From Paracoccaceae bacterium (lineage in GTDB: Bacteria > Pseudomonadota > Alphaproteobacteria > Rhodobacterales > Rhodobacteraceae): 64,000 bases of DNA. The translations under genes and the position numbers were made by a program. Positions 156 through 58,193 of this stretch are shown here, piece by piece; the stretch's first letter is position 1; every line of letters starts with the position of its first letter. The stretch covers positions 62,001-126,000 of the forward strand of contig JAQWSE010000005.1 in NCBI GenBank assembly GCA_029243395.1, given 5' to 3'. Under the pieces are notes generated by a model. That model was given only the letters and a program-made list of their open reading frames with translations. It was not told where the DNA came from and made no database searches.

Positions 156-1556
156 CTAGAGATGAATTACTTTATCTTCAGAGCTTAATACACTTTCATG
201 TAACATCTCTGACATTGTTGGATGGGGAAATATCGTATTAATAAATTCTTCTGATGTGGACTCAAGTTCCTTTCCAACCAAAAAAGTTGCAATAAGTTCT
301 GTCACCTCAGAGCCCACCATATGGGCTCCTAACAATTCCCCAGTATCTTTATCGAATATGGTTTTGATAAAACCCTCATCCTCCCCCATAGCCAAAGCTT
401 TCCCATTGGCCAAGAAAGGGAACGTACCGGTCTTTATTTCGTACCCAAGTTCCAAAGCCTTATCTTCAGTTAAACCTACAGATGCAATTTGAGGATTAGA
501 ATATGTGCAACCAGGTATATTTCCCCTTTTAAGTGGCCTAAGATTATCTTGACCAGCTATGATTTCAGCTACCATAACTCCTTCATGGCTTGCCTTGTGA
601 GCCAACCAAGGCGGAGAGGCTATGTCACCTATTGCAAAGATATTTTCCACATTTGTTTTGCAAAAGTCATTAGTCGTAATCACACCGGATCTTGTATTAA
701 CACCTATCTTTTCTAATCCTAGACCCTCCAAATTTCCCACTATTCCTGCAGCAACAAGAACAGCATGAGCAGAAATTTTTTCTTTTTTCCCTTTTCTTTC
801 AATTTCCAAACTAATCATAGATTTTTCTTGTTTAACTACTTCAAAACAGGAATCTACAAAAAACCTGATCCCTTTCTGTTCGAAACTTTTCTTCGCAAAG
901 TTTGAAACATCCTTGTCTTCGGTGGGCAAAATTCTGTCCAGCATTTCCAATACAGTGACATCTGACCCCATTGAGTTATAGAAACTAGCAAATTCGATAC
1001 CAATAGCACCAGATCCGATAATTATTAACTTCTTAGGAATTTCCGTTGGTCTTAAGGCATGACGATAATCCCAAACAATTTTTCCATCAACTTTGAGATT
1101 AGAAATCTCTCTAGGTTTAGCACCGGTGGCTATAATGATATTTCGTGCACTAATTTCCTTCTTCTCTCCATTATCTGTCTGAATGACAATCTCAGTATTA
1201 CTTAATAAAGACCCTGTTCCTTTGATAGTTTGCACTTTGTTTTTGGTTAATAAAAACTTTACTCCACTGGATAATTTTTCAGCCACTTTTTTTGACCGCC
1301 CTACCACATTATCAATATTTGGAGTTTGGCCGGACGTTTCAATGCCAAAATCTTGTGATCTCTTAACTAATTCATAAACTTCTGCAGATCGTAAAAGTGC
1401 CTTGGTAGGTATACAACCCCAATTTAAACACACACCGCCAATTTCAGCCTTCTCTACTACAACAACATTTAGACCTAATTGCGACGCTCTAATAGCGGCA
1501 ACATATCCACCTGGTCCTGAACCAATTATTGCTACATCAAAATCTTTTTCTACCAT
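156..1556 (-). CDS. lpd: Dihydrolipoamide dehydrogenase (E3)
   Basis: FAD/NAD-dependent oxidoreductase that re-oxidises dihydrolipoyl groups of 2-oxoacid dehydrogenase complexes and/or the glycine cleavage system. The N-terminal FAD Rossmann motif GSGPGGY is followed by the redox-active disulfide motif CLNWGC. A second dinucleotide fold (IIGSGAIGIEFA) follows mid-protein, and the C-terminal dimerisation domain ends with the catalytic HPTxSE motif. Length (about 466 aa) is normal. I prefer the ATG at 1556: the in-frame TTG at 1577 would place its purine-rich AGAGGA directly against the start codon. No E1 or E2 genes lie upstream; queA is the next gene in the same direction, 172 bp away, so which complex it serves is not shown here. 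Confidence 0.95.
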   Translation of the reverse strand: MVEKDFDVAIIGSGPGGYVAAIRASQLGLNVVVVEKAEIGGVCLNWGCIPTKALLRSAEVYELVKRSQDFGIETSGQTPNIDNVVGRSKKVAEKLSSGVKFLLTKNKVQTIKGTGSLLSNTEIVIQTDNGEKKEISARNIIIATGAKPREISNLKVDGKIVWDYRHALRPTEIPKKLIIIGSGAIGIEFASFYNSMGSDVTVLEMLDRILPTEDKDVSNFAKKSFEQKGIRFFVDSCFEVVKQEKSMISLEIERKGKKEKISAHAVLVAAGIVGNLEGLGLEKIGVNTRSGVITTNDFCKTNVENIFAIGDIASPPWLAHKASHEGVMVAEIIAGQDNLRPLKRGNIPGCTYSNPQIASVGLTEDKALELGYEIKTGTFPFLANGKALAMGEDEGFIKTIFDKDTGELLGAHMVGSEVTELIATFLVGKELESTSEEFINTIFPHPTMSEMLHESVLSSEDKVIHL

Positions 1557-1728
1557 ATTAAACCTATCTAGAATCAATCCTCTACTTTAAAGAAATTAAT
1601 TATTAACTTCTTAAGGAACAACTAATGGGTATCTCAACTAAATCAAAAATTCCAGACAATCTTTACATACTATAATTATATTTTCCGCCCCGGCACCAAC
1701 ATTGGCCACCATTAATTTTCAATATGGA

Positions 1729-2775
1729 TTAAGGTATTAATAAAGAAGCATCACCATAAGAATAAAACCTATATTTATTTGTAATTGCATGAGTATAAAG
1801 TTTCTTTGCCGCCTCTAGGCCCACAAAAGAAGAAATCAAAATGAAAAGAGAAGATTTGGGTAAATGAAAATTTGTTATTAATGCTGAAGTTACCCTAAAT
1901 TTGAATCCTGGCGTAATGAAAATGTTCGTAAAACCTTTAAAATTCTCAATCTGACCACTTTTTGTGGTAGATGACTCAAGTATTCTTAAACTTGTTGTTC
2001 CGACTGGAATTACCCTTCTTCCTGAAGTTAATGCATCATTGATAATGTCACTGGTGGTCAGATCAATTTCACCAAACTCTTCATGCATTATATGATCACA
2101 AATGTATTCAGTTCGAATTGGTGAAAATGTACCAATGCCCACATGCAATGTAACAAAACAAGTCTTAATACCTTTTGCTTCAATTCTTTCCATCAAATTA
2201 TTGTCAAAATGTAATGCAGCAGTGGGTGATGCTATGGATCCAATTGTAGTTGAAAAAATAGTTTGATAATCATCTTTATCCTGCGCATCTGCAGGTCGAA
2301 ATTTTCTGATATACGGGGGCAAAGGCATTTGTCCACTCTTTGCAAGCAGTGAAAAAAAATCTCCAAAGTACTGAAATTCTACAATCACTCCATCCTTCCG
2401 CCTATCAACTATCTTACCGCTCAAGTCATTGGAAAATATAATGTGATTACCTAGCTTCAGTTTCTTGATTGGCTTACATAGACAAAGCCACTGATTCGCA
2501 GACAATCTTTTAGTTAATAAGAACTCTAGTCGATTCCATTTTTCTTTAGGTTTATCAGTTTCTTCAATCACTCCATGGAGAAGTGCAGGAATGACCTTGG
2601 TATTATTAAAAACTAATAGGTCACCAGCCTTTAATTGGTCAGGCAAATCAAAAAAAGAAAGGTCCCTTAGGATATTTTGATTATAATAAAGTAACCTAGA
2701 ACTAGATCTAGGAACCTTTGGTCTTGTAGCAATTAGCTCTTTTGGTAAGAAAAAATCAAATTCGGTTAATCGCAT
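1729..2775 (-). CDS. queA: S-adenosylmethionine:tRNA ribosyltransferase-isomerase QueA
   Basis: Catalyses transfer and isomerisation of the AdoMet ribosyl moiety onto 7-aminomethyl-7-deazaguanine in tRNA, giving epoxyqueuosine at the wobble position of GUN anticodons. The protein is full length (348 aa). It starts with MRLTEFDFFLPKELIA, close to the family's DFDYxLPxELIA, and carries the LLVFNNTKVIPA-like strand, SPTAALHF, and HVGIGTFxPI near the middle. The family companion tgt, commonly downstream, is not here; lpd follows instead. The start codon abuts the first codon of the decayed frame on the opposite strand (CATATG), so no separate upstream promoter segment exists between them. Confidence 0.95.
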   Translation of the reverse strand: MRLTEFDFFLPKELIATRPKVPRSSSRLLYYNQNILRDLSFFDLPDQLKAGDLLVFNNTKVIPALLHGVIEETDKPKEKWNRLEFLLTKRLSANQWLCLCKPIKKLKLGNHIIFSNDLSGKIVDRRKDGVIVEFQYFGDFFSLLAKSGQMPLPPYIRKFRPADAQDKDDYQTIFSTTIGSIASPTAALHFDNNLMERIEAKGIKTCFVTLHVGIGTFSPIRTEYICDHIMHEEFGEIDLTTSDIINDALTSGRRVIPVGTTSLRILESSTTKSGQIENFKGFTNIFITPGFKFRVTSALITNFHLPKSSLFILISSFVGLEAAKKLYTHAITNKYRFYSYGDASLLIP

Positions 2776-3375
2776 ATGCGTAATATTACAATGTTGTTAA
2801 AGTTATTGGGCAAGAAAATAGGCATGATAATTCATTCTTTTAGGTATCTAGGCACTTACCCTGTTCGAATATACAATGTCAAAAAAGTTAATTGTCGGCA
2901 AACAGTTTCCAAATTTAATTTAAATATTAATAGAGATGAAAGAATTAGTAAGAAATCACTTTCAAAACGAAAGCCAATTATTTTTATCTATCGAAAAATA
3001 ATACTAGAGACTGCACCCAAGTAATGTGTTGATTTATCAAAACTTGTTAAAGATTTTCAGAAAATTAATTTCTCAATATATGATCCGTCCAAAGGCTATA
3101 CTGAGCGCTAAAAAATTCGGTTAAAGTATGACCTTAGAATAAAACTCATTTTAGATCTTTCTACTGAACTGTTACTCCGAGCAGGCGCCTGGATAAAAAA
3201 GCTATGTATTACAAAACATATATGGAATCCAAGCGGACAACTTAGTTTTGAACAAAACAATCAGGTTACCTATATGTGAACGAAAGTTCGTTTAAATAGC
3301 AATGCTGAGGAGGTATTGAAAGCTTGCCAAAACCTAATTAAAGAGGATAATAAGTCTGCAACAATAAAATCTTAG
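2776..3375 (+). pseudogene. Decayed tyrosine-recombinase/integrase-like reading frame
   Basis: A single reading frame runs from 2776 to the TAG at 3373-3375, interrupted by TAA at 3022, TAA at 3109 and TGA at 3277. The third segment reads LLLRAGAWIKKL and later GQLSFEQNNQ, then after the TGA TKVRLNSNAEEVLKACQ. This resembles the core of tyrosine recombinases (LLLRTGARISEL ... G-hydrophobic strand ... VPLN-alpha helix). On that alignment the first catalytic Arg is Trp, encoded by TGG at 3190-3192, one transition from CGG. The HxxR box and nucleophilic Tyr are not seen, so the 3' end is also truncated. The nominal ATG is back-to-back with the queA start and is probably not the ancestral start. 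In-frame decay is what I see; the family is my inference. Confidence 0.45.
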
Positions 3376-3990: not shown

Positions 3991-5088
3991 CTATGCATTG
4001 ATATTTTTAGCTAGCGCTCCTAGCAAGAAATCATCGAGATTTCCATCGAGCACACTCTGAGAATCAGAAGTTTCAACTTCAGTTCTAAGATCTTTCACCA
4101 ACTGATATGGTTGCAGTACGTACGACCGTATTTGATTACCCCATCCCGCTTCACCCTTTGAATCATGTGCGTCTTGGATATCTTTGTTAATCTTTTTGAT
4201 TTCCAAATCATATAACCTTGATTTAAGAGCTGCCATGCAATTGGATCTATTTTGGTGCTGAGACTTTTCCGAACTGGTCACAACAATTCCTGTTGGCAAA
4301 TGGGTAATTCTTACGGCAGAATCTGTAGTATTTACATGTTGACCACCTGCCCCAGAAGATCGAAAGGTATCAATTCTCATCTCTGATGGGTTTAAATCCA
4401 CAGCAAAGTTATCATCAATTACAGGATAAACCCAAACAGAACAAAAAGAGGTATGTCTACGAGCGGAACTATCAAACGGGGAAATTCTGACCAATCTATG
4501 GACACCGCTTTCCACCTTCAACCATCCATAAGCATTTGTCCCTTTGATTTTGTAAGAAATTGATTTGAATCCAGCCTCATCTCCAGGATTTTGTGAAATT
4601 ATTTCGATCTGAAACCCTTTTCTTTCTGCCCACCTAACATACATTCTAGCTAGCATCATTGCCCAATCACAACTTTCTGTGCCCCCAGCTCCAGCATTAA
4701 TTTCCAAAAATGTGTCATTCGAGTCTGTTTCCCCATCCATTAAGGCCGATCTTTCGGCATTAAAAACATCTTTCCTTAATTGGAACAGATCGTCTTCAGC
4801 TTCCTCCACCACTTCCTGTTCTTTTTCCTGAATTCCAAGCTGTATTAATGTAACACTTTCATCTAATCTTTTTTCAATCTCAGAGTATTGTTGCACAAAA
4901 TTTTCTAACCACTGCCTCTCTTTCATCAATGCACGAGCACTTTTGGGATCTTCCCAAAAGCTACTATCATTTGTAATTGAATGGAGTTCATCAAGCCTTT
5001 CTATGGATTGAGCGAGGTTTCTCCTCTTCGCCAGAATATCTAAAGATTTCCTTATTTCTTCAATCGTTTCCAGAACTTCAGCTCTCAA
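3991..5088 (-). CDS. prfB: Peptide chain release factor 2
   Basis: Class I release factor recognising UAA and UGA. Residues 203-205 are SPF, the RF2 codon-recognition tripeptide (RF1 has PxT), and residues 248-250 are GGQ, which triggers peptidyl-tRNA hydrolysis. The N-terminal coiled-coil domain spans roughly 1-110. The reading frame is continuous from MRAEVLETIEEI, so the programmed +1 frameshift with an early in-frame UGA known from many prfB genes is absent. Length (365 aa) is normal. It is the gene downstream of the class A PBP gene on the same strand, an order found in other alphaproteobacteria, with a 120 bp gap. Confidence 0.97.
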   Translation of the reverse strand: MRAEVLETIEEIRKSLDILAKRRNLAQSIERLDELHSITNDSSFWEDPKSARALMKERQWLENFVQQYSEIEKRLDESVTLIQLGIQEKEQEVVEEAEDDLFQLRKDVFNAERSALMDGETDSNDTFLEINAGAGGTESCDWAMMLARMYVRWAERKGFQIEIISQNPGDEAGFKSISYKIKGTNAYGWLKVESGVHRLVRISPFDSSARRHTSFCSVWVYPVIDDNFAVDLNPSEMRIDTFRSSGAGGQHVNTTDSAVRITHLPTGIVVTSSEKSQHQNRSNCMAALKSRLYDLEIKKINKDIQDAHDSKGEAGWGNQIRSYVLQPYQLVKDLRTEVETSDSQSVLDGNLDDFLLGALAKNINA

Positions 5089-5208: not shown

Positions 5209-7305
5209 TCACTTAAATCTTGACTTATGCCTGTCCTGAACCACAATTCGTTGGATTAGGGAAAGACATGAACCAGAAAATGTGTCAGGAGAAATCTGTA
5301 AATTCGATTTCTTTGCCTCTATATGACAGCCAAACATTTTATCAGAAATTATTCCTATAACTGAATCAAAATTTAATTCTCCATCAGTATGATGTTTACC
5401 CAATAGTGTTATTTCATCATTCCCATCTAATCCTACAATCACATCAAAATGCACTAGTGGAAAAAGTTCAAAACCGTTTTCTTTAGCTTTTCGCACAAAA
5501 TATTGAGTGCCCACTTCATCAGTTATGTGATGGAGTACGGCCTTCCTATCGTTTTGACACTGTTCACATTTCTGAATTCCTATTTTCTTAGGATAAACCT
5601 TTTGTTCTCCTTTAGAAACTTCGAGTAATACATGTTCCTTTTTTTCTGTTTCCCCAATAACTAGCATATTATAAGCGGATATTACATCAATAATAGTAGT
5701 CTGGCTATCGACTCTGAAGTATTTTTGTGATTCTGAAATTTCTTCAATGAGACCATAATTCATAAGAATTTTGATGCTAGCATCATCTAATAAATCTTTC
5801 TGAATCTCTCTATTTGAATATGCAAATATATCTACAACACTGGCTAGAGCGTTTAAATTAGGATCATTCCAATCAAAAAACCGCTTAGAAACAACCGTTA
5901 AGATAATAGAATTTAAAAATTCTAGTCTAGGTCTTCTAACTTCAGTTACTTTGTTTATACTACTCAATTGATGGTCATAACCGCCCTCAAGAGCTAAAAT
6001 ATCTCCTGTTCCTAAATCTGATATTATGACACCTCCATCAAATAATGACATCTGCTTATAAAGCCAAATTGGTGCTCGATCTTTTAAATCGCTTTCATCT
6101 TGAACATATACAACACTTCCTATCTTTAAATTTGACTTTACCCCTGCCATAAAATGTAATTGTTGTATTTCTGGAGAACGGTCTGTCACAACTAATGTGT
6201 TTTCACCCTGAATATCTACTACCACTGCTAAATTCCATCCATAATGTGGCTTAGGTAAATTTTCATTTTTAAGTGCTTCAAACCATTTAAATTTTTCGTT
6301 TTTGTGGTCAGCTTCAATGTGAGCTACAGGTAATCCATATTCTGTAACTGCATGATTTAAATCTTGAATTTCAAACTTCAAAGCATTTCTTGCAATTTGT
6401 TGCAAATTAGAATCGATAGAAGTTTTGATCGATAAACCTCCCTGATTAACGTACCTTTCTCCTAATTCAGTATTTACCTGTGCTCTTATCTTCTCACCCA
6501 AAAATCCTTTAAATAGCTCTAGTCCCTCGCCCCCTACAATCTCTCCAGTCAAAACCGTTTGCAGTTTGGAATTTTTCTCTGAACTTAACTTACCTTTAGA
6601 GAGATACCCATTTTCCACCATCTCATCTAAAACAAAATTCCTTCTTTGAATCGCATTTTCAGGATTGCTTAATGGATTATATGCCTGAGGTGATTTAGGC
6701 AAGGCGGCCAAATAAGCGGCCTCACGTGGTAACAAGTTCTCCAAACTCTTGGCAAAATATGTTTTCGCGGCCGCTGAAACTCCAAAAGCTCCCTCGCCCA
6801 AATAAACCTCATTAAGGTAAATTTCCAATATCTCACTTTTGGTCAGAATTTTTTCCAGTTGTATAGCAAGAATTAGTTCTCTAATTTTTCTTTCAAAACT
6901 TCTTTCTCCTGAAAGAAGCAATCCTTTTGTGACCTGTTGAGTAATGGTTGAAGCTCCCCTTAACTTTGCTCCTTTGGAAAAATCAATAATGGCCTTTAGA
7001 AGGCTAATAACATCATACCCAGAGTGCTTATAAAAGTTCTTATCTTCAGCACTTATGAATGCATGTATTACCAACTCCGGAATTTTTTTAATTGGAATAA
7101 ATTCTCTTTTCTCTGAATAAAAGAAACCTAGGATCTGTTCATTTCGATCCAAAACTTTATTAATAGTTTTTGGCTTGTATTCAATGATCTCAGCAATACT
7201 TGGGAGTTGATTACTGTAAAATTCAACTAAAGATCGAACAACCAGAAAGGCTATAAGGCCAGACAATAAGAAATATATTATGATCTTCTTCAATTTATCT
7301 ATCAC
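5209..7305 (-). CDS. mrcA: Class A penicillin-binding protein 1A with degenerate transpeptidase domain
   Basis: Bitopic inner-membrane protein with one N-terminal transmembrane helix (about 8-24). The GT51 glycosyltransferase domain (about 45-230) looks complete: EDKNFYKHSGYD with the catalytic Glu near 87, GASTITQQ (117-124), EIYLNEVYLGEGAFG (161-175), and a later SPQAYNP. It should polymerise lipid II. The rest still aligns with PBP1A (GGVIISDLGTGDILALEGGYD at 424-444; a C-x2-C pair at 580-583), but where relatives have QPGSxFKP it reads RPRLEFLN (459-465). The active Ser and Lys are both Leu, the SxN segment is diverged, and the KTG segment is gone, with ENGFELFPLVHFDVIVG at about 609-625. 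At 698 aa it is shorter than usual PBP1A (about 780-850). I infer a polymerase-only enzyme. Confidence 0.9.
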   Translation of the reverse strand: MIDKLKKIIIYFLLSGLIAFLVVRSLVEFYSNQLPSIAEIIEYKPKTINKVLDRNEQILGFFYSEKREFIPIKKIPELVIHAFISAEDKNFYKHSGYDVISLLKAIIDFSKGAKLRGASTITQQVTKGLLLSGERSFERKIRELILAIQLEKILTKSEILEIYLNEVYLGEGAFGVSAAAKTYFAKSLENLLPREAAYLAALPKSPQAYNPLSNPENAIQRRNFVLDEMVENGYLSKGKLSSEKNSKLQTVLTGEIVGGEGLELFKGFLGEKIRAQVNTELGERYVNQGGLSIKTSIDSNLQQIARNALKFEIQDLNHAVTEYGLPVAHIEADHKNEKFKWFEALKNENLPKPHYGWNLAVVVDIQGENTLVVTDRSPEIQQLHFMAGVKSNLKIGSVVYVQDESDLKDRAPIWLYKQMSLFDGGVIISDLGTGDILALEGGYDHQLSSINKVTEVRRPRLEFLNSIILTVVSKRFFDWNDPNLNALASVVDIFAYSNREIQKDLLDDASIKILMNYGLIEEISESQKYFRVDSQTTIIDVISAYNMLVIGETEKKEHVLLEVSKGEQKVYPKKIGIQKCEQCQNDRKAVLHHITDEVGTQYFVRKAKENGFELFPLVHFDVIVGLDGNDEITLLGKHHTDGELNFDSVIGIISDKMFGCHIEAKKSNLQISPDTFSGSCLSLIQRIVVQDRHKSRFK

Positions 7306-7782
7306 TTAATAAGTAATTAGTATAAGATTTAAGGTTGATCGATATACCGCTTCAAATCTAATGGCAAGTCACTCATAATTCAACGGATCATACCATATTT
7401 TTTAACCTCAACTTGATATGGAATTTGACATTGCAAAATAATTTGATAATTAGGTACTGTAACTTAAACTGAAAGCTACTTATTATACTAGTAAGATAAG
7501 TATAACGTTTATAATAAGAAAAGGAATTCTAGCGGGGACAAGAAGTTATTTTCCGCATTTATAAAGTGATAACGTCTTATTACTTTAACCAACTCATCTG
7601 AGTTAACTCAGATTTAATTGTAACAACTTTGAGACTGACGACGATAAATATTTAAAATTTGTCAAGAACTGCATTTAAGAAAATTAAGTTTGTGTTCTCA
7701 ACATCAGTCACAAATCAGGAAGTGAATACTAATGATAATATCTTCAAGGAATAAATCATGAAGCATTCACAGGTGGTATTTT
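7306..7782. other. Divergent intergenic region between the class A PBP gene and rne
   Basis: This 477 bp gap separates divergently transcribed mrcA and rne. No protein-like ORF is visible on either strand. In many alphaproteobacteria an N-acetylmuramoyl-L-alanine amidase gene occupies the place between rne and mrcA; no trace is recognisable here. It holds an 18-bp palindrome (7596-7613) and probably the long 5' leader of rne, a gene that is autoregulated through its leader in better studied bacteria. The sequence is strongly AT rich with several candidate -10 hexamers, so no single promoter can be chosen by eye. Confidence 0.5.
7596..7613. promoter_or_regulatory. Perfect 18-bp palindrome upstream of rne
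   Basis: The sequence ATCTGAGTTAACTCAGAT is an exact dyad with no spacer. It lies 169 bp upstream of the rne start and about 290 bp upstream of mrcA. It could be an operator for a dimeric repressor shared by the two divergent genes or an RNA hairpin in the rne leader. It overlaps a TTAA-N7-TTAA arrangement (7603-7617), the CtrA consensus spacing, but that pattern is expected often by chance in DNA this AT rich. Confidence 0.35.
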
Positions 7783-10293
7783 ATGCAAAAAAAATTGCTA
7801 ATAGATGCGTCGCATCAAGAAGAAACAAGAATTGTTTTGCTGGATCGCGATCAAGTAGAGGAATTTGATTTTGAATCCGGACAAAAAAAGCAACAGGCCG
7901 GCAACATTTTTCTGGCTAAAGTAACAAGAGTTGAGCCGTCACTACAAGCTGCTTTTTTAGACTATGGTGGAAACAGACATGGATTTCTTGCCTTTTCTGA
8001 AATTCATCCGGATTATTATCAAATTCCCGTGGCTGATAGAGAGGCCCTTATCGCTGAAGAAAGGGAACTTGAGAATCAATCTGATGATTACCTGGAAAAT
8101 GATATTGACAATGAAGTAATCGACAACAGATTACCAGCATATGCAGAGCTTAAACAGAATTCCAGTGAGCTTGTTAAGTCAGACCCACTGGATTTAGAAG
8201 AAAAAAATCTAGATTTAGATAGTTTTCCTCCTGAGAAAAAAGAGGAATTAAAAGAATCCAATACTGCTCCAGTTGGGGAAAAACCGAGAAATGGAGATAC
8301 CTTTATAAGTGGTGAAGAAACTGATCAATCATTAGGTTCAGATTCAAAAGAAAAAAATACTAAATCACTCAAACCCAAAAAGAAGTTCCGAAAAAACCGC
8401 TACAAAATTCAAGAAGTAATAAAAGTAAGACAGGTACTTTTAATTCAAGTTGTTAAGGACGAAAGAGGGAACAAAGGGGCAGCTCTAACAACTTACATAT
8501 CTTTAGCTGGAAGATATTGCGTCCTTATGCCAAATACTGCCAGGGGCGGAGGTATATCACGAAAAATAACAAATATAGGAGATCGAAAAAAACTGAAAGA
8601 AACGGCCAGTGAATTCTCGATACCCGATAAGATGGGGTTAATAATTAGAACCGCTGGAGCTAAAAGAACTAAAACTGAAATAAAAAGAGATTTCGAATAC
8701 CTACTAAGACAATGGGAACAGATTCGTGATTTAACCCTAAAGTCAATCGCACCTTGTCCAATTTATGAAGAGGGCAGTGTCATAAAAAGATCCATACGAG
8801 ATCTTTATACAAAAGAAATTAATGAAATCATTGTAGAGGGTGAAATAGGTTTTAAAGAGGCCAAGGATTATATGAAAATGCTTATGCCCTCACATGCAAA
8901 AAAAATTAAAAATCATGAAAAAGCTCAACCAATTTTTTCTTACTATGGGGTAGAAAACTACCTTTCAGCGATGTTTAATCCAACCGTTCAATTAAAATCA
9001 GGTGGATATATTGTTATCGGTATTACCGAAGCCCTTGTGGCAATTGATGTAAATTCAGGAAGATCTACAAAAGAAAGTGGTATTGAAGCTACAGCCCTCA
9101 GAACAAATTTAGAGGCTGCTGATGAAATCGCCAGGCAATTGAGAATGAGAGATCTAGCTGGATTAATTGTAATAGATTTTATAGACATGGAAGAGAAAAA
9201 GAATAACATTTCTGTAGAACGAAAGATGAGAGATAGCCTCAAATTGGATCGGGCCCGCATACAAGTAGGAAGAATATCCTCTTTTGGATTGTTAGAAATG
9301 TCTCGGCAACGGCTACGCTATGGCATGGTTGAAGCCACTACGAAACCCTGTTCAAATTGTTATGGCACAGGACTTACGCGATCAAATGAAAACCTGGCCT
9401 TGGAAATTCTAAGGGCTTTAGAGGCTAAAAAGCCACTTAGTGATGCTACAGAAGCCGTTGTTAAAGCTCCAGTAGAAGTGGCTAACTACTTGTTAAACCA
9501 AAAAAGACGCAACCTTGAAATAATTGAAAAAAGGTTAAAAATCAATATAGCAATCCACGCGGATATCAGTATCAGCAATCCAAATTTTGTTTTTGAAATA
9601 ATTAAATCACCTGGAACCCTTGACGAGAATCATTTAGGAAAAGTTATCACAATAGATGGAGCTAAGAATAGTCCAAAAGAAGAAAATGAATCAGCTAGCA
9701 ACAATGAGTCTGCTCAAGGAAATCCAACTGAACAGGTTGGAAGAAAGCAAAAAAGACGCCGAAGACGTAATAATAAGAGCAGGCAAATCGATTCAGACGT
9801 GACTTCAAGTACAAGTTTAGAGCAAAATAATTCAAAAAACTTAGAAAAAATTAGTAAAGTTGCGGAACCTTTAAAGAATGATAGCTCGTTAGAAAAAGAA
9901 CACAAGTCAGATAACAGGAAAGTTTCAGAAGACAAGAAAACTGGCGCAGAAAAAGTAAATGCTCAAAATGCAAATGAAGATCACACACAAGAAGTTTCCA
10001 CCGATACACCAATGAAACAGCCCAAAAGAAGATCTACTCAGAGACACCAAGTTAAAGAAAAACCAAAAAAAGTATCTGATGAAAAAATATCTACTATAGT
10101 AAAGGCTGTAGACGAATCTGTTAAAACGACGTCCAAGAAAAGAATTGCTAAACCAGTCAAAGAAGTCTTAAAAGAAAATGAAATACAATCAGACCCAAAA
10201 GGTAAAAAAGGTGAGGAAAAACCTCTAACTAAAAATGAAAAAGAATCAAGAACAGGCTGGTGGTCAAGAAATAAATCGCTAGATGATAAGTAA
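7783..10293 (+). CDS. rne: Ribonuclease E/G family endoribonuclease
   Basis: Endoribonuclease of mRNA decay and rRNA/tRNA processing. It starts MQKKLLIDASHQEETRIVLL, matching the family (MLIDAxHxEExRVxxx). The S1 RNA-binding domain is split: its first strands (about 36-90) are separated from the rest (about 208-240) by an acidic, low-complexity insert (about 95-205), as in alphaproteobacterial RNase E. The magnesium-binding catalytic aspartates fall in AIDVNSGR (D422) and VIDFIDME (D465), and the zinc-link CSNC is at 523-526. The C-terminal part (about 640-836) is charged and disordered, with a KRRRRRNN patch near 660-675 that may bind RNA or degradosome partners. AGGTGG 6 nt before the ATG supports the start. 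Confidence 0.95.
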   Translation: MQKKLLIDASHQEETRIVLLDRDQVEEFDFESGQKKQQAGNIFLAKVTRVEPSLQAAFLDYGGNRHGFLAFSEIHPDYYQIPVADREALIAEERELENQSDDYLENDIDNEVIDNRLPAYAELKQNSSELVKSDPLDLEEKNLDLDSFPPEKKEELKESNTAPVGEKPRNGDTFISGEETDQSLGSDSKEKNTKSLKPKKKFRKNRYKIQEVIKVRQVLLIQVVKDERGNKGAALTTYISLAGRYCVLMPNTARGGGISRKITNIGDRKKLKETASEFSIPDKMGLIIRTAGAKRTKTEIKRDFEYLLRQWEQIRDLTLKSIAPCPIYEEGSVIKRSIRDLYTKEINEIIVEGEIGFKEAKDYMKMLMPSHAKKIKNHEKAQPIFSYYGVENYLSAMFNPTVQLKSGGYIVIGITEALVAIDVNSGRSTKESGIEATALRTNLEAADEIARQLRMRDLAGLIVIDFIDMEEKKNNISVERKMRDSLKLDRARIQVGRISSFGLLEMSRQRLRYGMVEATTKPCSNCYGTGLTRSNENLALEILRALEAKKPLSDATEAVVKAPVEVANYLLNQKRRNLEIIEKRLKINIAIHADISISNPNFVFEIIKSPGTLDENHLGKVITIDGAKNSPKEENESASNNESAQGNPTEQVGRKQKRRRRRNNKSRQIDSDVTSSTSLEQNNSKNLEKISKVAEPLKNDSSLEKEHKSDNRKVSEDKKTGAEKVNAQNANEDHTQEVSTDTPMKQPKRRSTQRHQVKEKPKKVSDEKISTIVKAVDESVKTTSKKRIAKPVKEVLKENEIQSDPKGKKGEEKPLTKNEKESRTGWWSRNKSLDDK

Positions 10294-20292: not shown

Positions 20293-20312
20293 TAGTTCTA
20301 TGTAGTTCTATG
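20293..20312. repeat. Tandem 10-bp direct repeat between glnA and the DUF3445 gene
   Basis: TAGTTCTATG occurs twice in direct succession (20293-20302 and 20303-20312). The second copy covers the TAG stop of the minus-strand DUF3445 gene (20308-20310). It looks like a small slippage duplication. No function is indicated. Confidence 0.6.
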
Positions 20313-21105
20313 ATTTAACTTTCTTAAGTGAGTCAATTTGAGCTTTTGTTAATTGAGACCTACCAACAATAAAGGTGTGAATGCCAAATACTATGGCATT
20401 AGATTTAGGCAACCTGAAGAGGGTCTGTTTTTCGACTCTTACCCAAAAATCACCTTCAAAAAATGATTTGCGAGTTGTCTGTGATAACTCTTCCTTTTGA
20501 GGAGAGAATAATTCAGGGTTATCATATAAATACCAATTGGCTCTCCATATTGGGGTCTCAACCTTCAAATTATTGAACATTCGTTGCACAAGATGAGAAA
20601 TTTTATCTGTATAATGTTGAACAGGTTTGTGAATCCTACTCATAGGTTTCCCCATTTTTTCTCCCAATGTCCATAAAGCCGGAAAGCATAAAATTCCACC
20701 ATTGAGTATGTGTTCTTTCATTTCTGAATCCCACTGCAAAATCAGCAAATCTTCTTGCACCAATCTACCAGCGATGACCAATGGGTTATCAGACTCTAAT
20801 GAAACTTTTTCCCCATCAGGTCGCGTTACTTTTGAATCTGTTACATGATAATTGCTGTTACCATTCAATTTAACTAAAACCAACTTCAACAATTCTTTGA
20901 CAGCATTTTTAGCTTCTTCATTCAATTGAAAAACTTTTTCTCTATTTTGCAAAATTAATTCATCGCGATAGCCCATTTGCCCATCAAACGCGTCATCTTG
21001 CAGGAATAAGCCATCTGTTCTTAGTGGTTGAACACCTGGCAACCTAGCTGTGACTGCACTGTCCCAAGGTGACAGAGGTAAACTTTTCTGGCAGATTTCT
21101 TTCAT
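20308..21105 (-). CDS. DUF3445 / heme-dependent oxidative N-demethylase family protein
   Basis: Matches the DUF3445 family, of which some members are heme-dependent oxidative N-demethylases. Visible family features are LPLSPWD near the N-terminus; the RLVQEDLLIL strand; FPALWTLGEKMGKPMSRIHKPV; PIWRANWYLYD; and RVEKQTLFRLPKSNAIVFGIHTFI near the C-terminus. Length (265 aa) fits. No signal peptide is seen, so it is probably cytoplasmic. Substrate is unknown; methylamine-type compounds from osmolyte breakdown are a guess from the family. It is a single gene between glnA and parE, convergent with the former and divergent from the latter, and its neighbours do not indicate a pathway. Confidence 0.8.
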   Translation of the reverse strand: MKEICQKSLPLSPWDSAVTARLPGVQPLRTDGLFLQDDAFDGQMGYRDELILQNREKVFQLNEEAKNAVKELLKLVLVKLNGNSNYHVTDSKVTRPDGEKVSLESDNPLVIAGRLVQEDLLILQWDSEMKEHILNGGILCFPALWTLGEKMGKPMSRIHKPVQHYTDKISHLVQRMFNNLKVETPIWRANWYLYDNPELFSPQKEELSQTTRKSFFEGDFWVRVEKQTLFRLPKSNAIVFGIHTFIVGRSQLTKAQIDSLKKVKS

Positions 21106-55709: not shown

Positions 55710-58193
55710 ATGCCAAAACTTTTCAAATCACTTGTGGTATTTTTTATTGCGATAATTTCACTTGCAACCTGTTTTACACTTTTCACTTTTTTTTTGGCTC
55801 AGAAATCTTTACCTGACTATAATAGAGTGGTCGAAAGTTCCCTCATAAAAAAAGAAATAAAAGTTATTAGAGATGAGTATGCAATACCTAATATCAAAGG
55901 AAAAGAAAGTGAGGATGTTTTCTTTGCCCTAGGATATGTTCACGCTCAAGATAGATTGTGGCAAATGCTTTTACTAAGGAAAACAGCACAAGGTAAACTT
56001 TCAGAATATTTTGGGACAGAGACCCTGGATACAGATATTTTCATGCGAACTTTAGACATATACAACAAAGCACACAAAAGCATTGGGTATATATCACCAG
56101 AAGTTCTTCAATTGATTACATCTTACTCTAACGGGGTTAACCAAAGACTTATGGATATTCGGCAAGAAGGTTTAGGGCGCGGCACACCTAACCTATTTCT
56201 CTTTCCACCACAAGTAGCACCCTGGACACCAACAGATAGTATCGCAATACTTAAACTCTTAGCTCTACAAAATAATGAAAGTGCACAAAAGGAGGTCATT
56301 AGATTGAACCTTTTGAAGGTAGGTGTTTCTTCAAAAAGGTTATCGGATCTATTTTCAGACATCCCAGATATTTCTAACTCTAAAACTTTGTCTAATCTCG
56401 ACATGCTATCAAATCTGGGAACTAACCCTGATCACGACAGAACGATCAATAATAGTTCGATATTTAAAAACCATTTCACAAATAATGATTTTGGAACTGC
56501 AAATGCTTCAAATATTTGGGTTTCATTACCATCCAGGACTGCTTCTGGAAGTACACTAGTCGGATACAACCTACACACCAAATTTGAAGCTCCAATAATC
56601 TGGATGATTGCAAAAATGACCTATGAAAAAAATACATTAATTGGAGCAACTATTCCTGGGATTCCAGCTATTTTAACAGGGCGATCAGATTTTATCTCTT
56701 GGGGTATATCAAGCTCTAATCTAGATAATCAGGACTTAATCATAGAAAATATTAATCCTAATAATCCAGACGAGTATCTTGATAATGGAGAATACAAGAA
56801 ATTCAAAAAAAGAACTGTTCTCATTGAAATACGTGACAAACCGGGATTGACTCATACAATTAAATCAACTGACCGAGGCCCCATCATTCCCCCAAAAGCC
56901 TACGGACTTCAAACTATAGTATCTACTAATCAGGCGGTGGCATTAAAATGGACTGGATTAGATCCTAAAGATAGGTCAATTGAGTCTCTGATCTTAGCGA
57001 TGACCGCCAGAGACATAATGACTGCTAAAGAGGCATTCAGATACCTAGTGGTCCCATCATACAATGTTTTGCTAGCCGACCCTAAGAGCGCCACAATAGT
57101 GAGCGCAGGAAAAATTCCGAATAGAACGGAGACATTAGGTGACAGTTTTGGGGTAATACCATCCCTGGGATGGGAAAATCCTATGGAGTGGGCTGGTTAT
57201 CTAGAGTATGATAAGAACCCATCAATCTCAGATACATTAACTGGAACTTTATTTAACACTAATAACAGATTAACGAAAAATAACTACCCTGAACACTTTA
57301 GTTATGATTATGAGGGAAGCCAAAGAAATCTGAGAATGCGAAACCTTTTTGAGAAGAGGAAATTTCATAGTTTGCAAAGTTTTAAGGAAATTCACTCAGA
57401 TATTGTTTCTTCTAGCGCGAGAACAATACTTCCATTATTAGCAAAAAATCTATGGTATTCTCAGACATTAACTATGGACAACGATTTGATTATTTTACGA
57501 AAAAAGGCTCTAGAATTACTGGGGGAATGGAATGGAGATATGTCAATTCATCTTGCCCAACCGCTTATTTATAATAGTTGGGTAAGCCAGTTTCAAAGAA
57601 TGGTTCTGCAAGACGAACTCGGATCAAAAATGTACTGGTTCAAATCAATCAAACCAGATTTCCTAGAGCGCGTGTTAAGAAATGTAGACGGAGCTGGAAT
57701 CTGGTGCGATATTATACAAACTCAAAAAATAGAAACCTGTGATGAATTAGCCCTGATGGCCCTTGACGACGCCCTGGTAACCAACGCTAAGTTGATTAAG
57801 TCAGAATTAGCTGAATGGCGTTGGGGGAACTATCATAAAGCTCGTTTCAAAGATAAGATCATCGGTGGTTATCCAATTATTTCTTACTTGACTAATATAG
57901 TTTTTGAAACACCCGGTGGTGATAACACATTATCTATGGCTAGATCATTAAGGTCTTCGAGCAATATTCATGACGTGAGATATGGTAGCACGCTAAGAAT
58001 TATTTTTGATTTATCTAACCCAGATTATTCTTTTGTGTCTATGCCAACTGGACAAAGTGGACACTTGTTTTCTAGGCATTATGATGACTTTTCAGTACTT
58101 TGGAAGAAAAATGAATACCATCAAATTTATTTTGATGATGCAAAGCAAAAAACTAGTCATTCTAGTATAATGAATTTTAAACCTCTAAATTAA
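55710..58193 (+). CDS. Penicillin acylase family (S45) Ntn-hydrolase
   Basis: Self-processing N-terminal-nucleophile amidase, exported or membrane anchored. An N-terminal hydrophobic segment (about 7-30) is followed by the alpha-chain motif VIRDEYAIPNIKGKESEDVFFALGYVHAQDRLWQM (about 52-86), characteristic of the family. The predicted nucleophile, Ser267 in ANASNIWVSLPSRTASG, would become the beta-chain N-terminus after autocleavage. Length (827 aa) is normal for the precursor. The substrate (acyl-homoserine lactone, beta-lactam side chain or another amide) cannot be told. It converges on sufS with a 4-bp overlap. Confidence 0.9.
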   Translation: MPKLFKSLVVFFIAIISLATCFTLFTFFLAQKSLPDYNRVVESSLIKKEIKVIRDEYAIPNIKGKESEDVFFALGYVHAQDRLWQMLLLRKTAQGKLSEYFGTETLDTDIFMRTLDIYNKAHKSIGYISPEVLQLITSYSNGVNQRLMDIRQEGLGRGTPNLFLFPPQVAPWTPTDSIAILKLLALQNNESAQKEVIRLNLLKVGVSSKRLSDLFSDIPDISNSKTLSNLDMLSNLGTNPDHDRTINNSSIFKNHFTNNDFGTANASNIWVSLPSRTASGSTLVGYNLHTKFEAPIIWMIAKMTYEKNTLIGATIPGIPAILTGRSDFISWGISSSNLDNQDLIIENINPNNPDEYLDNGEYKKFKKRTVLIEIRDKPGLTHTIKSTDRGPIIPPKAYGLQTIVSTNQAVALKWTGLDPKDRSIESLILAMTARDIMTAKEAFRYLVVPSYNVLLADPKSATIVSAGKIPNRTETLGDSFGVIPSLGWENPMEWAGYLEYDKNPSISDTLTGTLFNTNNRLTKNNYPEHFSYDYEGSQRNLRMRNLFEKRKFHSLQSFKEIHSDIVSSSARTILPLLAKNLWYSQTLTMDNDLIILRKKALELLGEWNGDMSIHLAQPLIYNSWVSQFQRMVLQDELGSKMYWFKSIKPDFLERVLRNVDGAGIWCDIIQTQKIETCDELALMALDDALVTNAKLIKSELAEWRWGNYHKARFKDKIIGGYPIISYLTNIVFETPGGDNTLSMARSLRSSSNIHDVRYGSTLRIIFDLSNPDYSFVSMPTGQSGHLFSRHYDDFSVLWKKNEYHQIYFDDAKQKTSHSSIMNFKPLN

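Follow-up and report, generated by a model that had tools for sequence, protein, structure and literature searches.

By its sequence, the protein encoded by mrcA in the window (the whole 64,000-nucleotide stretch of DNA that was analysed) appears to be a class A penicillin-binding protein (PBP) that has been reduced to a glycan polymerase and carries a pseudo-transpeptidase domain. Our preferred reading, to which we assign a probability of about 75%, is that a PBP1A orthologue has turned into a glycan polymerase whose transpeptidase (TP) domain cannot catalyse, the cross-links being made by other enzymes. The features on which this reading is based are listed here, where A2 denotes an alignment of 63 rows, including 61 live relatives, most of which carry Rhodobacteraceae titles.

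5209..7305, minus strand: mrcA (PBP1A) orthologue with a dead TP domain (open reading frame, prfB synteny, GT51 tree)
7216..7299, minus strand: N-terminal transmembrane helix, residues about 3-30 (hydrophobic stretch read by eye; modelled as a helix at 2-31)
6619..7131, minus strand: GT51 glycosyltransferase domain, residues 59-229, with E87 and E143 retained (PF00912, E 2.8e-60)
6106..6618, minus strand: linker and OB-like region, residues 230-400, diverged (PCB_OB matches)
5212..6105, minus strand: degenerate TP domain, residues 401-698 (absence of PF00905; dN/dS)
5911..5934, minus strand: RPRLEFLN replacing QPGSxFKP, residues 458-465, SxxK lost (A2)
5386..5400, minus strand: GKHHT replacing GKTGT, KTG lost (A2)
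5266..5328, minus strand: C660 and C680, conserved cysteines of the retained sheet core (63/63 rows of A2; 6/6 dead members)
3991..5088, minus strand: prfB, syntenic marker downstream of mrcA

The mrcA frame starts with GTG and encodes 698 amino acids with no internal stop. In 66 of the 80 named loci that were fetched, prfB lies at most 4 kb downstream of mrcA on the same strand, and this neighbourhood together with the GT51 tree described below identifies the window gene as a PBP1A orthologue. The protein has the N-terminal half of a class A PBP, a transmembrane helix followed by GT51, but not the C-terminal TP domain with SxxK, SxN and KTG (no PF00905 match; L461, L464, H638 and H639 at the motif positions). 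The NCBIfam PBP1A model TIGR02074 scored 292 bits against a cut-off of 508.75, with the match stopping at model position 294 of 535, the MtgA model TIGR02070 scored 140.8 bits, below its cut-off of 182.65, and the best sequence matches in the PDB covered the N-terminal half of the protein. On sequence grounds we classify the protein as a PBP1A by descent and locus and not by function, the latter being rejected because the defining TP motifs were looked for and are absent.

The glycosyltransferase half is well preserved, as had been claimed from the GT51 motifs in an earlier note on this DNA. Pfam placed GT51 at residues 59-229 and reported no other domain above cut-off. In A2, 78 of 101 highly conserved GT51 columns match the consensus of the live proteins, and both E87 and E143 are present in 63/63 rows. 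We take these glutamates to correspond to E83 and E140, the catalytic residues in the GT domain of Aquifex PBP1A, with which they align and with which the spacing in the PDB match agrees. From the conserved residues, the window protein is predicted to act at the membrane, where it would join lipid II units into glycan strands. In making glycan strands only, it would resemble MtgA, from which it differs in holding a 300-residue TP remnant and in lying at the PBP1A locus; frames of MtgA size (229-274 amino acids) are separate genes in 9 of the 12 genomes of the genus, and the genome of the window, G000, encodes one MtgA-size GT51 protein.

The live rows of A2 were drawn from the 80 named loci. 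Four of these (L105, L128, L130 and L140) have no frame with TITQQ on the plus strand, and among the other 76 the SxxK pattern was matched in 74, the two misses being L075, itself a dead form, and L113, which is cut by the contig end. The 75 complete frames were thinned to 62, and removal of L075 left 61 live rows. The serine and the lysine of SxxK are present in 61/61 of them, and the window protein has L461 and L464 in their place, so the replacement of QPGSxFKP by RPRLEFLN proposed in the earlier note stands, in both residues and coordinates. The K, T and G of KTG are likewise present in 61/61 live rows, and the window reads G-K637-H638-H639-T; the motif is lost, as claimed, yet its lysine is retained. 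For SxN the situation is less clear-cut. Both S and N occur in 61/61 live rows, where the window reads S-N-R in A2, but in another alignment, read by eye, it has I-F-A. The placement depends on the alignment because 26 columns beside SxN are missing from the window protein, and since the two alignments disagree we term the motif 'not recognisable', the wording already used for it. The window protein also lacks roughly 100 residues that live PBP1As have at the C-terminal end. Alignment with live PBP1As thus bore out that the SxxK and KTG elements of the triad are missing, and because the SxxK serine and lysine and KTG are gone, the window protein would be expected to form no penicilloyl- or peptidyl-enzyme.

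Profile searches agreed with the alignment. PF00905 matched 12/12 controls, that is, 11 live PBP1As and the second class A PBP of the window's genome (L003), but found no match in the window protein at E up to 10 and none in six dead orthologues (0/6) at E up to 1. The PCB_OB profile matched 11 of the 12 control proteins, the exception being L003, and only one of six dead forms, at E 0.041. Compared with the bifunctional PBP1A (MrcA) of Rhodobacteraceae, the window protein shares the locus beside prfB, GT51, the membrane anchor, an alignable TP sheet core and a cysteine pair, and differs in lacking SxxK, KTG, a recognisable SxN and a PF00905 match, and in its length of 698 residues against 839 in the live homologue L154.

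The earlier note also held that the fold around the lost motifs is still alignable. An AlphaFold2 model of the window protein built on A2 had a mean pLDDT of 70.7 and a pTM of 0.51. Block-mean pLDDT values were 69-98 for residues 71-250, 32-57 for 261-300, 74-91 for 301-440, 28-63 for 441-630 and 74-88 for 631-690, the last block comprising strands of the TP sheet together with its final helix. The model of live L154 made from the same sequences reached a pLDDT of 82.1 and a pTM of 0.77, and its TP domain (about 440-740) had block means of 80-97 except for two dips of 56-67. The model suggests that the TP beta-sheet core is kept and the active-site half altered; the low pLDDT at residues about 441-630 may reflect few alignable sequences rather than disorder. 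Class A PBPs headed the hits of a structure search, but the eleven best superimposed with an rmsd of 17-20 Å and TM scores of 0.33-0.36 over the chain, so this search speaks for architecture only; chains consisting of GT alone fitted at about 3 Å.

A TP sheet core that is still predicted might be thought to harbour a shifted or unusual nucleophile. We consider a surviving transpeptidase of this kind very improbable, as the sequences near the old nucleophile, RPRLEFLN in the window, RPRREFLE in L007, QNLKKALYP in L008 and QNLKKALFP in L009, have no Ser/Lys pair in common, and alignment of the six orthologues revealed no such pair conserved near the old site. The C-x2-C pair (C580, C583) pointed out earlier is real, but it is kept in four of the six genus members and lost in two, and the pair retained in 6/6 is instead C660 and C680.

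The window's genome (2.49 Mb, 98% complete) belongs to a genus of uncultured relatives of Rhodobacter. The dead form is present in six of the 12 genomes of this genus, namely G000, G003, G007, G005, G001 and G002, and the TP domain is dead in all six; over the alignment, identity to the window protein is 85% for G003, 82% for G007, 47% for G005 and 36% each for G001 and G002. In the other six genomes the place beside prfB is unassembled, so that the TP is dead in 6/6 judgeable members, and we do not read these gaps as gene loss. The contig of G009 ends 176 bases upstream of prfB and that of G010 inside prfB, and prfB was not found in G004, G006, G008 and G011, where matches at 40-44% were taken as prfA. 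The expectation that close relatives would carry the same motif loss was hence confirmed wherever the gene is assembled, as was the statement that the loss occurred without a frameshift: the frame is open and in the same state in 6/6 genus members. A sequencing, frameshift or assembly artefact has a negligible probability, since six separate assemblies agree, which rules out chance or sequencing error. One of the genes, that of G002, is identical letter for letter to that of the single-cell genome AG-911-F16; excerpts of PMC12416821 assign other AG-911 cells, F16 not among them, to the GORG-tropics ocean set.

A GT51 tree of 49 rows (28 TITQQ-bearing rows of one alignment and 21 named-locus rows) grouped the six dead forms in one clade with support 100/100, sister to 29 live family rows under a midpoint root, with a long stem of 1.07. 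On this tree the TP loss has a single origin, with the exact placement of the clade unsure because two of the dead rows are unusual in composition. Profile A3, built from the remnant, was compared with 394 family genomes, two of them in the genus. This profile detects copies of the present dead form, not independent TP losses elsewhere. It matched strongly only in G000 and G003 (E < 1e-140), and no further copies were found in the 394 genomes; the best match among the other 392 had an E of 8.7e-18, and 19 of the 394 had none at 1e-6. The frames were displayed for part of the matches, two of them short (478 and 457 amino acids) and located at contig starts. QPGSxFKP is present in all 28 further loci that were fetched (L186-L213). 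In the literature searched, partly with narrow phrases and with subscription papers outside the scope, we recognised no report of a class A PBP whose TP domain is dead by nature.

We compared selection on the two halves of the gene in pairs of G000, G003 and G007, among which dS was 0.27-0.46 in the compared regions. The dN/dS ratio was 0.07-0.11 for GT51 and 0.37-0.45 for residues 401-698, and in 2000 bootstraps for each of the three pairs neither region reached 1. For residues 444-627 alone, 0, 1 and 1 of 2000 bootstraps reached 1, and for the last 71 residues alone (628-698) the numbers were 38, 31 and 0. The live transpeptidases of the same genomes had ratios of 0.07-0.14 (FtsI) and 0.17-0.18 (MrdA). 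GT51 is thus under strong purifying selection, the purifying selection on the remnant is real but weaker than on a working transpeptidase, and the gene is not simply decaying. In the three species the protein is exactly 698 amino acids long without a gap, and 25 columns of the remnant, including G425, G441, G442, G651, G659, C660 and C680, are invariant across the six members, whose identity falls to 36%. The domain has the two marks of a pseudoenzyme, catalytic residues lost (in 6/6) and selection on the domain itself (the ratio of 0.37-0.45). The earlier suggestion of selection for glycan polymerisation alone agrees with the low ratio of GT51, but the dead domain is also kept, and therefore, strictly speaking, polymerisation is not all that the protein is maintained for.

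From this selection and the predicted sheet core we infer that the remnant may be a platform in the periplasm with no catalysis of its own, on which the polymerase is stabilised or docked, a role to which we give about even odds. This step is contested by a possible, though clearly less favoured, reading that is otherwise compatible with a live GT and a dead TP, in which the TP half is a slowly decaying relic kept only as folded backing for GT51, with no role of its own. The remnant's dN/dS is indeed higher than in GT51 by a factor of roughly three to six and higher than in the live FtsI and MrdA by a factor of two to five, the C-terminal tail and the 26 columns beside SxN are gone, and C-x2-C is absent in two of six members. 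A relic would not, however, readily account for a ratio well below 1, also in residues 444-627, for the ungapped length in three species or for the invariant columns.

If the preferred reading of a polymerase with an inactive TP domain is correct, cross-links would be made by the second class A PBP, PBP2, FtsI and L,D-transpeptidases. The earlier proposal that cross-linking is left to another enzyme was followed up in G000, and candidates of the kinds it named were found. L003, at 1234-3228 (minus strand) on contig C3 of G000 and adjoining an mlaC-looking gene, has QPGSAFKP, S-I-N and KTG intact; it passes the TIGR02074 cut-off, and its best NCBIfam match, the PbpC model NF051885, is below cut-off. 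L001 (PBP2), which sits beside a RodA-like gene, and L002 (FtsI) match PF00905; the names PBP2, FtsI and second class A PBP are putative and represent our own reading. Three YkuD (L,D-transpeptidase) proteins are also encoded, one of them of the YcbB type (SHGCVR; Scaffold, PG-binding and YkuD domains), as are two Peptidase_S11 (DacA family) proteins. Because genes for PBP2, FtsI, L003 and YkuD proteins are present, the proposed division of labour is possible, and the gene set is consistent with it. The second class A PBP turned up in four of the 12 genus genomes, its motifs being read in G000 only; we did not infer its absence elsewhere, as the contig of G003 ends in the neighbouring gene and this neighbour was not found in seven genomes.

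The class A PBP reaction might even be split over two chains in this genus, the remnant docking or activating a partner cross-linker, perhaps the YcbB-type L,D-transpeptidase, and passing it the nascent glycan, which would couple polymerisation by one protein to cross-linking by another. Such an arrangement would parallel in nature the E. coli wall built by the PBP1b GT and YcbB: in a mutant described in excerpts of PMC5089857, the PBP1b GT with YcbB and DacA is enough for polymerisation under beta-lactams, also when PBP1b is in its S510A form. The enzyme with Scaffold, PG-binding and YkuD domains and the two Peptidase_S11 genes occur in the same genome as the window gene. We nevertheless regard docking of this kind as rather unlikely, because YkuD enzymes were found in only 8 of the 12 genus genomes, whose assemblies are incomplete, and not in G005, which carries the dead form, and because the YcbB-type protein scores 240 bits against PRK10594, below the cut-off of 425.

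Like the window protein as we interpret it, engineered PBP1b S510A is a class A PBP that polymerises lipid II without transpeptidation (PMC5089857, in part), but it carries a single substitution in an intact fold, whereas the loss reported here is natural and common to the genus. Structural or regulatory roles with dispensable catalysis are described (PMC12713402, PMC12539705) for B. subtilis PBP2b, C. difficile SpoVD and PBP3; these are class B PBPs with engineered catalytic mutations, and the window protein combines a natural loss with a GT in the same chain. For the class A PBP1 of C. difficile, both activities are required for growth according to a portion of PMC12539705. The need of a class A PBP for its own TP has so far been studied with engineered mutants, and this lineage appears to have dispensed with it naturally while keeping the polymerase. 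Its orthologues raise the question of what a TP fold that no longer catalyses contributes to a GT51 enzyme, and annotation by GT51 or PBP1A similarity would over-count penicillin targets.

Three further observations concern the rest of the window. In 62 of the 80 fetched loci an amiC relative lies less than 1 kb before mrcA on the same strand, but amiC is missing from this place in the window (7306-7782): the best tblastn match of the relatives' amiC within 7201-7900 had an E of 0.37. Amidase_3 was found in none of the 12 genus genomes and in 89 of 100 family genomes; the 11 misses include G000. A tie between the losses of amiC and of the TP was considered and dropped: among the ten other genera that lack Amidase_3, those of G090 and G093 have PBP1A frames of 848 and 841 amino acids, and judged by these lengths amiC loss need not accompany TP loss. 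At 20308-21105 (minus strand), next to a glnA-looking gene, lies a gene for a haem-dependent oxidative N-demethylase alpha-like protein (PF11927). Finally, 55710-58193 (plus strand) encodes an 827-residue protein of the penicillin-amidase family (PF01804, E 1.8e-164) with a weak match to PvdQ, below cut-off, which is possibly a signal-molecule acylase.
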